A DNA stretch of 64,000 nucleotides from Sinorhizobium psoraleae (GTDB lineage Bacteria; Pseudomonadota; Alphaproteobacteria; Rhizobiales; Rhizobiaceae): positions 62,001 through 126,000 of the forward strand of contig NZ_JABEKV010000001.1 in the NCBI RefSeq assembly GCF_013283645.1, in the 5' to 3' direction. A program made the translations under genes and the position numbers. A model generated the notes under the pieces. It was not told the DNA's origin. It ran no database searches and worked only from the letters and a program-made list of their open reading frames with translations. Positions 18,059 to 58,811 of the stretch are shown here, piece by piece. Each line of letters begins with the position of its first letter. Within the stretch, counting starts at the first letter, position 1.

Positions 18059-18915
18059 CTGTGACTGTCCATATCGTGAATGATGATCTGCCGAAGGGTT
18101 TCGTCGACGACCGGCCGGCGGCCAAACCATTTTTCGAATCCGGGCACCGCCTGATGCAACAGCATGCCAAGCCCGTCGACGATCGCAAAGCCCTGATCTT
18201 CGGCCTGGCGCAGCAATGGCGTTTTGAGCGGCACATAGACAATATCCGTCACGACCGCCCCCTCGTCCATCATCGAGAAATCAATCTCCGGCGCCGGCTC
18301 GCCATCCATGCCGAGCGAAGTCGTGTTGACGAAAAGGCCCGCGCCCGACATCACTTCGGGCAAGGCTTCGAGCGGGTGGGCGTGGACGGCGGCGCCGAAG
18401 CGATCCGCCAGTTCCCGCGCCCTCTCGGGTGTGCGGTTTACCACATGGATTGCCTTGACGCCGCGATCGCGGACCGCCTGGATCACGGCGCGACTTGCAC
18501 CGCCGGCGCCGAGGACGACGGCGGTCGAAATTCTGTCCCACCCTTTCGCGCGCTCGTCGAGATTGGCGACGAACCCTCGCCCGTCGGTGTTCGTCGCGCA
18601 AAGCTCTCCGTCTTCAACCCACAAGGTATTGGCGGCGCCGAGCTCGGCGCTCAGTTCGTCCGGACGATCGGAAAGACGAAATGCGGCTTCCTTATGGGGA
18701 ATGGTGACGTTGCCGCCACAGAGACCGGAGGCGCCGCTCTTCAGTTGAAGCATGAATTCCGGAAAGCCTTCCGGCGAGACCTCATAGGCCCTATAGCTGC
18801 CGGCAATCCCCAACTCCTTCAGCCAATAGCCGTGGATCAGCGGCGAGCGCGAATGCCTCACCGGAAATCCGGTGACGAAGGCATGGTTAACAAATGTTTC
18901 ACGTGAATCACGCAT
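18055..18915 (-). CDS. aroE: Shikimate dehydrogenase
   Basis: A 286-residue NADPH-dependent shikimate dehydrogenase of the aromatic amino acid pathway. Visible are the substrate motif VTGFPVRHSRSPLIHGYWL, the catalytic Lys in NVTIPHKEAAF, the glycine-rich AVVLGAGGASRAVIQA and the NADPH-discriminating VNRTPERARELA. The start ATG 18915 overlaps the end of maf (stop at 18908), and a parS-like 16-mer (18895-18910) is built into codons 2-7, read as RDSRET. The overlap with coaE at the other end makes a maf-aroE-coaE cascade. Confidence 0.95.
   Translation of the reverse strand: MRDSRETFVNHAFVTGFPVRHSRSPLIHGYWLKELGIAGSYRAYEVSPEGFPEFMLQLKSGASGLCGGNVTIPHKEAAFRLSDRPDELSAELGAANTLWVEDGELCATNTDGRGFVANLDERAKGWDRISTAVVLGAGGASRAVIQAVRDRGVKAIHVVNRTPERARELADRFGAAVHAHPLEALPEVMSGAGLFVNTTSLGMDGEPAPEIDFSMMDEGAVVTDIVYVPLKTPLLRQAEDQGFAIVDGLGMLLHQAVPGFEKWFGRRPVVDETLRQIIIHDMDSHR
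18895..18910. other. parS-like site 1 (one mismatch)
   Basis: TGTTTCACGTGAATCA differs at one position from the bacterial parS consensus TGTTTCACGTGAAACA recognised by ParB. It lies in the overlap of the maf 3' end and the aroE 5' end, about 1.5 kb left of oriC. Confidence 0.85.
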
Positions 18916-19507
18916 CGATCGAGCCCAGGTCACGGAGTTTCGAGAGGAGCGGCAACATCGGCAAGCCGAGAATCGTGAAATAGTCGCCTTCGATCTTTTC
19001 GAAGAGCTGGATGCCCTCGCCTTCGAGCTGATAGGCGCCGACGCTTGCAAGCGCCTTCTCGCCGACCTTTGCAAGGTGTCTTTCGATGAAGCCCCGAGTG
19101 AGCGGCCGCACGGTCATATGGGCAGAGGAAACGTGGCGCCAGACGACCTCGCCGTCACGGACGAGAACGATCGCACTGTTCAGACTGTGCGTCTTGCCGG
19201 ACAGCGAAAAGAGATGGTCGGCCGCCTCGGCCGTGTCCTTCGGCTTGTGATAGACGCGCGACCCGAGCGACATGGTCTGATCCGAACCGATAACGAGCGC
19301 GCCATCGAAATGCCGTGCGACATCCCTTGCCTTGGCCTCCGCCAATTCCAGCGCGACATCCGATGGCGAAGCGCCGCTTGCCTCGAGCGGTTGCTCCAAT
19401 GCCCGTTCGTCCACGTTGGCGGCTCTTGCCTGAAATGTCAGCCCGGCGTTTTCCAACAGCGCGCGACGAAAGGGACTGGCGGAAGCCAACACGAGTGCGG
19501 TCGTCAT
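18908..19507 (-). CDS. maf: Maf-like nucleotide pyrophosphatase
   Basis: A 199-residue Maf/HAM1-fold protein that hydrolyses non-canonical or canonical nucleoside triphosphates to monophosphates. The N-terminal LVLASASPFRRALLENAGL, the EALEAKARDVA-like helix (ELAEAKARDVARHF), the VIGSDQTMSLGSRVYHKP loop and the late GAYQLEGEGIQLFEKIEGDYF are family signatures. Start at ATG 19507, 29 bp after the PPSR stop. The 3' end overlaps aroE. Confidence 0.93.
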   Translation of the reverse strand: MTTALVLASASPFRRALLENAGLTFQARAANVDERALEQPLEASGASPSDVALELAEAKARDVARHFDGALVIGSDQTMSLGSRVYHKPKDTAEAADHLFSLSGKTHSLNSAIVLVRDGEVVWRHVSSAHMTVRPLTRGFIERHLAKVGEKALASVGAYQLEGEGIQLFEKIEGDYFTILGLPMLPLLSKLRDLGSIDA

Positions 19508-19536
19508 TGTTAAATCCCGGGTTTTCCTGTTTCGCT

Positions 19537-20358
19537 CTATCTGAGCCGCGGGCGCAGGGCAACGATCGCAGCGGCGGTTTCCTCGATCGACCGGCGCGTC
19601 ACGTCGATCATTGGCCAATTGTTGCGCGCACAGAGCGAACGGGCATATTTCAACTCCTCGGCGATCGAGGCCCGGTCGGTATACTGTTCGCCATGGAAGC
19701 TCTGGGTCGTCCCGAGCAGGCGGTGCTGGCGCACCTGCGAGATCCTGTCGGCCGTCGCGATAAGGCCGACGACGAGCGGTTTCGTCGCGCTGATCAGACC
19801 GTCCGGCAACGGCACACCAGGCACGATCGGGATGTTCGCCGTTTTGATGCCGCGATTGGCAAGATAGATGCTCGTCGGCGTCTTCGATGTACGACTTACG
19901 CCGACAAGAACGACATCCGCCTCGTCGAAATCCGCCGGCATCTGGCCATCGTCATGGTCCATGGTGAAGTTCAGCGCCTCGATCCGGGCGAAATACTCGG
20001 CGTCCATGACGTGCTGCGCTCCCGAGCGGCGCCGGGATGGCGAGCCGAGATAAGACTGAAACAGATCGATGATCGGATCCAGCACCGAAACACAAGGCAC
20101 GCCGATCTCGCGGCAGCGCTGATCGATGATGTCGGCAAGCTCGCGGTCGACGATCGTGTAAAGAACAATGCCCGGCGCGCCATCGATCGCGTCCAGCACC
20201 TGCATCAGCTGCTTCCGGTTCCGGATCAGCGGATAGACGTGCTCCAGCGCATGCGACGACTGGAATTGCGCCGCGGCCGCGCGTCCCGCTGCAATCAGAG
20301 TCTCGCCCGTCGAATCGGAGACGAGATGCAGGTGGAAATAGTTTTTTCGGTTCTCCAC
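19537..20358 (-). CDS. Pyruvate, phosphate dikinase regulatory protein (DUF299 kinase/pyrophosphorylase)
   Basis: A 273-residue DUF299 protein (PPSR). It phosphorylates and dephosphorylates a Thr of PPDK or PEP synthetase, using ADP and phosphate. The start FHLHLVSDSTGETLIAAGRAA, the P-loop GVSRTSKTPTSIYLANRG and GDLERRISQVRQHRL-like (TADRISQVRQHRLL) segments are characteristic. It is the first minus-strand gene left of the origin; a PPSR gene next to hemE across oriC is the usual rhizobial arrangement. Confidence 0.94.
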   Translation of the reverse strand: MENRKNYFHLHLVSDSTGETLIAAGRAAAAQFQSSHALEHVYPLIRNRKQLMQVLDAIDGAPGIVLYTIVDRELADIIDQRCREIGVPCVSVLDPIIDLFQSYLGSPSRRRSGAQHVMDAEYFARIEALNFTMDHDDGQMPADFDEADVVLVGVSRTSKTPTSIYLANRGIKTANIPIVPGVPLPDGLISATKPLVVGLIATADRISQVRQHRLLGTTQSFHGEQYTDRASIAEELKYARSLCARNNWPMIDVTRRSIEETAAAIVALRPRLR

Positions 20359-57876: not shown

Positions 57877-57902
57877 CGAAATCCATATTCTGTTGGTCGC
57901 GA

Positions 57903-58724
57903 TCAGTCGCCGTCTATCTCGGCGCCGATGATGGCGATCGCCTGCTGGTACACGCTGGCGGCGTTCCATCCCTGGATCGCACCGTAGTTGACCTCGCCCG
58001 GCTGATAACCGCCGCCTGGCTGCCATCCATGGCCGCGCAGGAAGTTGGCGGTGGAGGCGAGTGCGTCCGCCTTGGAGCGGACCATGTCGACATGGCCGTT
58101 GCCGTCTCCGTCCACACCGTATTTCAGGACGTTCAGCGGCAGAAACTGCGTCTGGCCGATCTCGCCATGGGCAGCACCCCGGGCAGCAGGGCTCAGATCG
58201 CCGCGCTCTACAAGCTGGAGCGCTGCGTAAAGCTGGTTGGTGAAATAGTCGGAGCGGCGGCAGTCGTAGGCGAGCGTCGAGACGGCCGAGAGCGTGTGTT
58301 CCTTGCCCAAGAAGGAACCGAAGCCGGTTTCCATCCCCCAGATCGCAATCAGCGGTCCCGCCGGGACGCCGAAGCGCTGTTCGATGCTGGCAAACAGCTT
58401 GGCGTTCTGTGCCCGCATCTTCTTGCCGCGCGAGATGATCGCCTGACCGCCACGCTTCTGCATGAACTGGTCAAGCGAGAGCTTGAAGCTCTTCTGGCCG
58501 CGGTCCGCGCGGATGGTCGCCCTGTTATAGGAAACGTTGGAGAGTACCTGGTCGAGTACCGCCCTGCTGATGCCGTTGCCGGCGGCTTCCTGCTTGAACT
58601 CAGCTACCCAGGCCGCAAAGCCGCTCCCGTCATTGCCGCATTGAGCCGCCGCAGCGGCCGTGGGAAGGATTGCCGTCGAAACCAGGGCCGCAAGCCCCGC
58701 CGCTACGCACTTTGCCCTGTGCAT
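57903..58724 (-). CDS. MltB-like lytic murein transglycosylase (SLT_2)
   Basis: A 273-residue periplasmic protein with a signal peptide (MHRAKCVAAGLAALVSTAIL then PTAAAAA). The SLT_2 domain carries the catalytic Glu in IWGMETGFGSFLG and GEIGQTQFLPLNVLKYGVDG. A calcium-loop-like DGDGNGHVDMV follows, as in the EF-hand of the E. coli MltB fragment Slt35. It cleaves peptidoglycan. ATG 58724 gives a better signal peptide than the in-frame ATG five codons further up at 58739. No C-terminal peptidoglycan-binding domain is present. Confidence 0.88.
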   Translation of the reverse strand: MHRAKCVAAGLAALVSTAILPTAAAAAQCGNDGSGFAAWVAEFKQEAAGNGISRAVLDQVLSNVSYNRATIRADRGQKSFKLSLDQFMQKRGGQAIISRGKKMRAQNAKLFASIEQRFGVPAGPLIAIWGMETGFGSFLGKEHTLSAVSTLAYDCRRSDYFTNQLYAALQLVERGDLSPAARGAAHGEIGQTQFLPLNVLKYGVDGDGNGHVDMVRSKADALASTANFLRGHGWQPGGGYQPGEVNYGAIQGWNAASVYQQAIAIIGAEIDGD

Positions 58725-58795
58725 GAAATACCCCGTCATTGCCCGAACAATCGCTTGTCTTCAATTACTGGTCCCGCGTCGCGGGATGCTAGTCA

Positions 58796-58811
58796 TGTTT
58801 CACGTGAATCC
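58796..58811. other. parS-like site 8 (two mismatches)
   Basis: TGTTTCACGTGAATCC matches parS except positions 14 and 16. It lies between the transglycosylase and asd, about 38 kb from oriC, the outermost of the sites seen here. Confidence 0.7.

Follow-up and report, generated by a model that had tools for sequence, protein, structure and literature searches.

The stretch analysed here, the window, comprises 64,000 nucleotides of Sinorhizobium psoraleae (G000:C1:62001-126000; the draft genome has 7.43 Mb and 67 contigs) and carries a probable replication origin, the parAB genes and eight 16-bp sites resembling parS of the ParABS partition system. All eight sites proposed in the initial annotation, with 1-3 mismatches to the reference pattern TGTTTCACGTGAAACA, were located, seven at the positions given there and the eighth one nucleotide earlier (43122 instead of 43123). 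In the following list, as throughout, the 16-mer is numbered from position 1 and the core refers to 14 bp.

18895..18910, plus strand: putative parS TGTTTCACGTGAATCA; GAATC (GANTC) in the right arm; close to where an aroE-like gene of the minus strand starts; core identical in 21/21 taxa
22393..22408, plus strand: putative parS CGTTTCACGTGAATCG; right arm GAATC (GANTC); hemJ-rho gap
24668..24683, plus strand: putative parS TGATTCACGTGAAACA; left arm GATTC (GANTC); rho-mnmE gap, given the likely mnmE start
26278..26293, plus strand: putative parS CGTTTCACGTGAAACC with perfect 14-bp core; mnmE-mnmG gap; 30/30 taxa
28265..28280, plus strand: putative parS TGTTTCACGTGAAACG with perfect 14-bp core; rsmG start, codons V-S-R-E-T; perfect in 80/80 named loci
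37908..37923, plus strand: putative parS TGTTTCCCGTGAAACA, A7>C in the left arm; within an acetyl-CoA-synthetase-like gene, codons V-S-R-E-T
43122..43137, plus strand: putative parS TGATTCACGTGAAACG; left arm GATTC (GANTC); 21/21 taxa
58796..58811, plus strand: putative parS TGTTTCACGTGAATCC; right arm GAATC (GANTC) in 20/21 taxa and GAAGC in 1

Such repeated occurrence had been judged unexpected by chance, and shuffled sequences indeed yielded a mean of 0.14 and a maximum of 2 sites compared to the eight found. Genome-wide, every site with 1-2 mismatches fell within a 103-kb block (C1:17460-120811). When up to three mismatches were allowed, 21 matches per strand were obtained, 11 in the block and 10 elsewhere; the latter were all three-mismatch matches, and their number equalled that of the reversed-pattern control (10 per strand). 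An equal density outside the block, which would have contradicted the initial annotation, was thus not observed. Three sites of the block lie outside the window, namely C1:17460 and C1:28642 with two mismatches each and C1:55141 (C1:55141-55156), a parS-like site with a single core change at the central CG. As to the wide spread emphasized in the initial annotation, judged from general knowledge of parS clusters a span of 103 kb is not in itself unusual.

The sites lie around a probable oriC, which we place at window ~20.42-20.75 kb from the gene order and from DnaA-box-like 9-mers at 20443, 20486 and 20534, directly upstream of hemE and each with one mismatch to what we take to be the DnaA box consensus. 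The genes follow in the order hemE, hemJ, rho, mnmE, mnmG, rsmG, parA, parB.

20420..20750, no strand assigned: probable oriC, DnaA-box-like 9-mers upstream of hemE
20766..21797, plus strand: hemE, TIGR01464 above cut-off
22533..23798, plus strand: rho, TIGR00767 above cut-off
24922..26238, plus strand: mnmE, NF003661 above cut-off, match from residue 105 of the open reading frame, which opens at 24610; start probable, from homology
26296..28230, plus strand: mnmG, TIGR00136 above cut-off
28227..28868, plus strand: rsmG, TIGR00138 above cut-off
28884..29678, plus strand: parA, matching ParA/RepA/MinD-type ATPase models (best E 2e-31, those shown being below their cut-offs); named from gene order
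29712..30602, plus strand: parB, Spo0J type, 296 aa, TIGR00180 above cut-off; best PDB match ParB 6t1f, E 4.5e-68
30174..30176, plus strand: codon of ParB Asn155, position calculated from the gene start

An Rfam scan of the window gave no match. Sequence, position and neighbouring genes agree with the proposed clustering of parS at the origin near parAB: the sites match the 16-bp palindromic consensus beyond chance, they cluster near the oriC placed here with chance level elsewhere, and the adjacent Spo0J-type parB encodes a protein with ParB specificity residues, the nearest named ParB being that of Sinorhizobium terangae (99% identity). By these features the eight sites classify as parS of an ordinary ParABS system. 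The ParABS systems of Caulobacter crescentus, Bacillus subtilis and Agrobacterium tumefaciens Ch1 share with the present one the 16-bp palindrome, the clustering at the origin and a ParB of the Spo0J type, and parS distribution was reportedly the subject of a study by Livny in 2007. For A. tumefaciens, the accessible part of one report gives parS1 with the B. subtilis consensus (PMC9239152). Unlike in those systems, most outer sites here share a GATTC arm, which is rare outside the order.

Where the initial annotation had seen a variety of mismatches, we found the opposite. Among the 11 sites of this genome, two have perfect cores (26278 and 28265), and in seven T3>A is present in one arm only, among them C1:17460, whose other arm has T3>C; the remaining two show other single changes, A7>C at 37908 and the centre change at C1:55141. 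T3>A turns GTTTC into GATTC, so that the half-site becomes GANTC, the motif given as the specificity of the methyltransferase CcrM in the accessible literature. GANTC thus lies inside 7/11 of the sites.

The variant was followed in 150 genomes of the order (Hyphomicrobiales/Rhizobiales), in 144 of which ParB was located. Analysis covered 96 parB neighbourhoods, about one per genus with some duplicates, leaving out 47 others and the window's own; unless cut short by a contig end, each took in 14 kb upstream and 6 kb downstream, with a total of 1.78 Mb. GATTCACGTGAAAC was present in 64/150 genomes and a perfect core in 130/150. The 96 loci contained 153 perfect cores, 143 one-mismatch and 19 two-mismatch sites, compared to 0, 0 and 5 in the reversed control. 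After mirroring to one arm, T3>A made up 100/143 one-mismatch sites, distributed over 45 loci, followed by T5>C and C8>T (10 each), T3>C (8), G2>A (6), A7>C (4), G2>T (2) and single occurrences of T4>C, T5>A and C8>A, while T3>G did not occur. The two-mismatch sites included seven with T3>A and T4>C in the same arm and three in which the second change lay in the arm facing T3>A. None of the sites in the 96 loci had T3>A in both arms, where about 10 would be expected if the arms were independent (calculated from 100 and 153). A GANTC-arm site was present in 47/96 loci and 22/49 families. By place, perfect cores amounted to 68/93 in rsmG, 63/118 upstream of mnmG and 4/8 between, 18/75 at distal upstream positions and 0/9 downstream of the parB start. 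Several families (L205, L195, L176, L240 and others) showed tandem parS groups with copies ~20-75 bp apart, mostly upstream of mnmG; these groups often include several copies with a GANTC arm, and a perfect copy may or may not be present.

Beyond the order, few genomes have the GATTC form. It occurred in 7/142 genomes of a class-wide sample, two of them in the order, and the resulting 5/140 is about the chance level (estimate 3), though the core, with any base allowed at position 3, was present in 116/142 class genomes. Two genomes of this sample stood out for their number of parS-like cores: G093, with 17 forward and 14 reverse matches spread over many contigs, and G024, with 13 and 13. A phylum-wide sample of 299 genomes included 213 from outside the class, in which position 3 was A in 7, C in 4 and G in 0 genomes, with a chance expectation of about 5 per form (estimate).

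Within the genus the arrangement is conserved. In 27 genomes behind the named loci (Sinorhizobium/Ensifer and close isolates), the perfect core was present exactly twice per genome (27/27) and GATTCACGTGAANC 4-8 times, 179 times in total. The GANTC arm was kept in every taxon compared with the single exception of the 58796 site (1/21). At 22393 it was retained in 28/28 taxa, two of which carry an additional change in the opposite arm, and the 14-bp core at 24668 was unchanged in 30/30 taxa, compared to a mean of 8.4 changes per column in the flanks (6.5 in wider flanks, 28 taxa). No A-to-T change was observed at six sites over 21-28 taxa, for which the probability is 0.059 if A and T are neutral. 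This suggests, short of proof, purifying selection on the A of the GATTC arm itself.

The presence of GANTC-type sites covaries with residue 155 of ParB, which aligns with position 163 in Caulobacter numbering. In the 96 loci such sites accompanied Gln in 18/18 cases (11 families), Asn in 7/9, Ala in 8/14, Asp in 4/8, Ser in 3/7, Gly in 1/3 and His in 1/1, and were few or missing with Glu (5/27), Thr (0/7), Met (0/1) and Lys (0/1). On a FastTree tree of MnmG and ParA the trait changed at least 20 times, and, measured against simulations of the trait along this tree, column 155 scored highest of all ParB columns (family-wise p 0.003 with 359 simulations and 0.002 with 1500). Only draws with a trait count near that observed were kept (359/400 in the first run). 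Residue 155 was chosen after seeing the data, with no hold-out set, and the family-wise p covers this choice of column. For the control trait, presence of other one-mismatch sites, the single-column p was 0.28. Among named Rhizobiaceae loci, 76 of the 78 parsed have the arm (2 further loci were unparsed) and all have Asn155, and they therefore provide no residue contrast. By alignment, Glu occupies the equivalent position in the PDB chains 6t1f, 7bnk and 1vz0, which we take to be the ParB proteins of Caulobacter, Myxococcus and Thermus, respectively.

The explanation we consider probable is that strong, perfect parS sites are combined with weaker half-variant sites that the ParB of this lineage accepts depending on residue 155. 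The two perfect sites, in the mnmE-mnmG gap and at the rsmG start, would be the strong ParB loading sites, and the other nine, altered in one arm or, at C1:17460, in both, would load less ParB. Such altered-arm sites, which reach 65 kb from oriC on one flank and 38 kb on the other, would load weakly. The altered arm shared by seven of these nine, GATTCAC for GTTTCAC, probably represents a lineage-specific half-site tolerated in one arm by the ParB of many species in the order. With Asn or Gln, and often with Ala, at position 155, ParB would accept A at base 3 of that arm, possibly by direct action of the residue on this base. Speculatively, the Asn/Gln amide could contact the adenine edge, and N6-methylation would then disturb this contact.

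A precedent for graded sites is provided by parS1-10 of Pseudomonas aeruginosa, where, in the accessible part of the report (PMC4368675), binding is strongest at perfect sites close to oriC, weaker if one arm is altered and weakest if both are. The altered sites described there differ in carrying various double mismatches, and neither a GANTC arm nor a covarying ParB residue is mentioned in that part. Base preference that follows residues of the DNA-binding domain is likewise described for the ParB/Noc switch (Jalal 2020, PMC7383237), where the portion available names residues 173, 179, 184 and 201 and bases 1 and 6 (16-mer positions 2 and 7), instead of residue 163 (155 in the present ParB) and base 2 (16-mer position 3) as here. 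The adjoining Q162 is listed there as a parS contact. A literature search, limited for subscription journals, found no mention of GANTC inside a chromosomal parS or of residue 163, and a search with the sequence itself led to two papers on unrelated subjects by title and abstract. The parS cluster is ordinary, and the dominant arm variant, its GANTC overlap and the covarying residue were not met within that search.

Several points weigh against this explanation. The stricter independent-pairs test by itself did not reach significance: contrasting Gln/Asn with Glu/Thr gave 6 pairs, of which a mean of 5.3 agreed and 0.0 opposed (median p 0.06), and contrasting Gln/Asn with all other residues gave 12 pairs, of which 5.2 agreed, 0.0 opposed and 6.8 showed no difference (median p 0.06). 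The GANTC arm occurs in 5/27 Glu loci and is missing from 6/14 Ala loci. The lower affinity of one-arm sites would follow by analogy to the P. aeruginosa sites, as far as that report could be consulted (PMC4368675). Residue 163 is not named among the DNA contacts in the available text of PMC7383237, the main text of which contains neither 'E163' nor 'position 163'. Furthermore, the GATTC form may also exist elsewhere, as six of the seven non-alphaproteobacterial A matches fall into two genera, four in g290 (G371, G384, G395 and G422) and two in g270 (G314 and G320), once in each genome, and some may therefore be inherited sites. If residue 155 and base 3 do form a specificity pair, ParB-parS recognition would gain an evolvable contact beyond those described.

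Compatible with this explanation, and possible although clearly less probable, is a gating of parS by methylation, in which A3 is kept since it makes a CcrM site. Base 3 is the very adenine that CcrM methylates in GATTC. Replication would leave the arm half-methylated, with full methylation following later; ParB loading would therefore cycle at the outer sites and stay constant at the perfect ones. A fuller version, in which a group of chromosomal centromere sites of this order are both parS and CcrM sites with a single GANTC each, residue 155 of ParB co-evolved to read the methylated adenine and outer loading is methylation-gated, appears a shade more doubtful. As judged by its RAMA domain (PF18755, E 3.6e-18; open frame of 387 aa), a CcrM-type enzyme is encoded in the genome, at G000:C12:449477-449764, and the domain was above cut-off in 145/150 genomes of the order. 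T4>C, which gives GACTC and keeps GANTC, occurred in 7/107 A3 arms versus 1/307 T3 arms (Fisher p 4e-4, with both arms of each perfect site counted and kinship ignored); the p value was 0.009 when perfect sites were counted once and 0.03 by family (4/22 versus 1/49). Moreover, A outnumbers the transition product C at base 3 by 100 to 8, and in the 75 bp next to perfect parS sites upstream of mnmG the enrichment of GANTC was 3.7-fold, compared to 0.8-1.7 for seven control pentamers.

However, CcrM is reported in nearly all Alphaproteobacteria bar two orders, as far as could be taken from PMC11514494, and despite this the GATTC arm is rare in the class outside the order. CcrM-type RAMA domains outside the order, where control genomes alone were scanned, were found in Caulobacter only. 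The flanking GANTC excess is mostly the known intergenic excess, gaps with parS having 7.06 GANTC per kb and those without 4.88, and around the rsmG site one control pentamer was more enriched (2.05) than GANTC (1.90). We therefore discarded this excess as proof of a link to methylation. One RAMA-less genome has the GATTC form, in an assembly that is 71% complete, and GANTC is lost in the GAAGC variant of the 58796 site. Absence of CcrM was also rejected as a natural control within the order: 146/150 genomes have a RAMA match, and the four without are assemblies 67-91% complete. GANTC near parS, with methylation suspected to affect partition, is also described for repABC replicons in the accessible parts of PMC11514494 and PMC9040568; there it lies near the RepB parS of secondary replicons, here inside the chromosomal parS arm. 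Should methylation act at base 3, a single base would tie the activity of the centromere to the timing of replication in rhizobia and many of their relatives. This link to segregation and the specificity pair are both open to in vitro tests using purified protein together with short DNA.

Somewhat less likely again, A3 in one arm might merely be tolerated and inherited unchanged, the altered arm having no role. The absence of A-to-T changes, at a probability of 0.059, is still compatible with such neutrality, and the lack of a perfect form in the acetyl-CoA-synthetase-like (acs-like) gene is partly accounted for by codon bias, because TCA is rare (19/341 Ser codons in the 14 genes counted). 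At the V-S-R-E-T/S codons of this gene (36103-38160), 49/80 named loci have a one-mismatch site and none a perfect one; two more have additional changes, and in the remaining loci there was no match, the codons were uncovered, the site was missing or a paralogue was matched. The same pentapeptide in rsmG has a perfect core in 80/80 loci versus 0/49 at the acs-like codons, which argues against neutrality, as do the exactly two perfect cores in each of 27/27 genomes, the predominance of A over C or G together with the lack of A in both arms, and the at least 20 changes on the order tree, which imply repeated gain or loss.

We consider it improbable that the GANTC motifs belong to GcrA/CcrM-controlled promoters, such as one of mnmG-rsmG-parAB, and overlap parS by accident. 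GANTC reached 7.76 per kb in the parS-holding mnmE-mnmG gaps of the order loci with parS masked, as would fit a promoter. Yet GANTC-arm sites also lie within genes (14 sites from 8 families in the rsmG region, and 7 loci in the acs-like gene), and GANTC stands in register with the parS arm. Apart from the parS question, the mnmE-mnmG gap is possibly a CcrM/GcrA-controlled promoter of mnmG-rsmG-parAB.

That the sites serve a Noc-like protein is extremely improbable: of the two bases by which the Noc-binding site (NBS) differs from parS, one is of the Noc type in the TTTCCC arm at 37908, and residue 176 of the present ParB (184 in Caulobacter) is the permissive Lys, but this ParB scores 227.5 of the 315 bits of the Noc model cut-off, its R165 and G193 are ParB specificity residues, and what we take to be the NBS core had one match with two mismatches in the window versus 0.35 expected, which is chance level. 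Of the Noc set Q173, K179, K184 and R201, the corresponding R165, S171, K176 and G193 agree in the Lys at 184 only; this comparison covers the one ParB, no search for a second ParB/Noc gene having been made.

The window contains two acs-like genes (AMP-binding and ACAS_N domains; 36103-38160 and 40687-42636) separated by 2.5 kb, the first of which holds the site at 37908. The one-mismatch sites at its V-S-R-E-T/S codons comprised 35 with C7, 7 with G10 and 7 with GAATC. Two of these three forms are exact reverse complements, so the site could invert without passing through a perfect form. Together with the rarity of TCA codons, the reverse-complement forms weakened the idea of selection against perfect sites at this position. 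The quasi-palindromic acs-like site appears to be flipped in its entirety between related species (L074, L081, L083, L085, L087, L128 and L144). Similarly, the outermost site showed one form in 13 taxa and its reverse complement in 4 (17 taxa).

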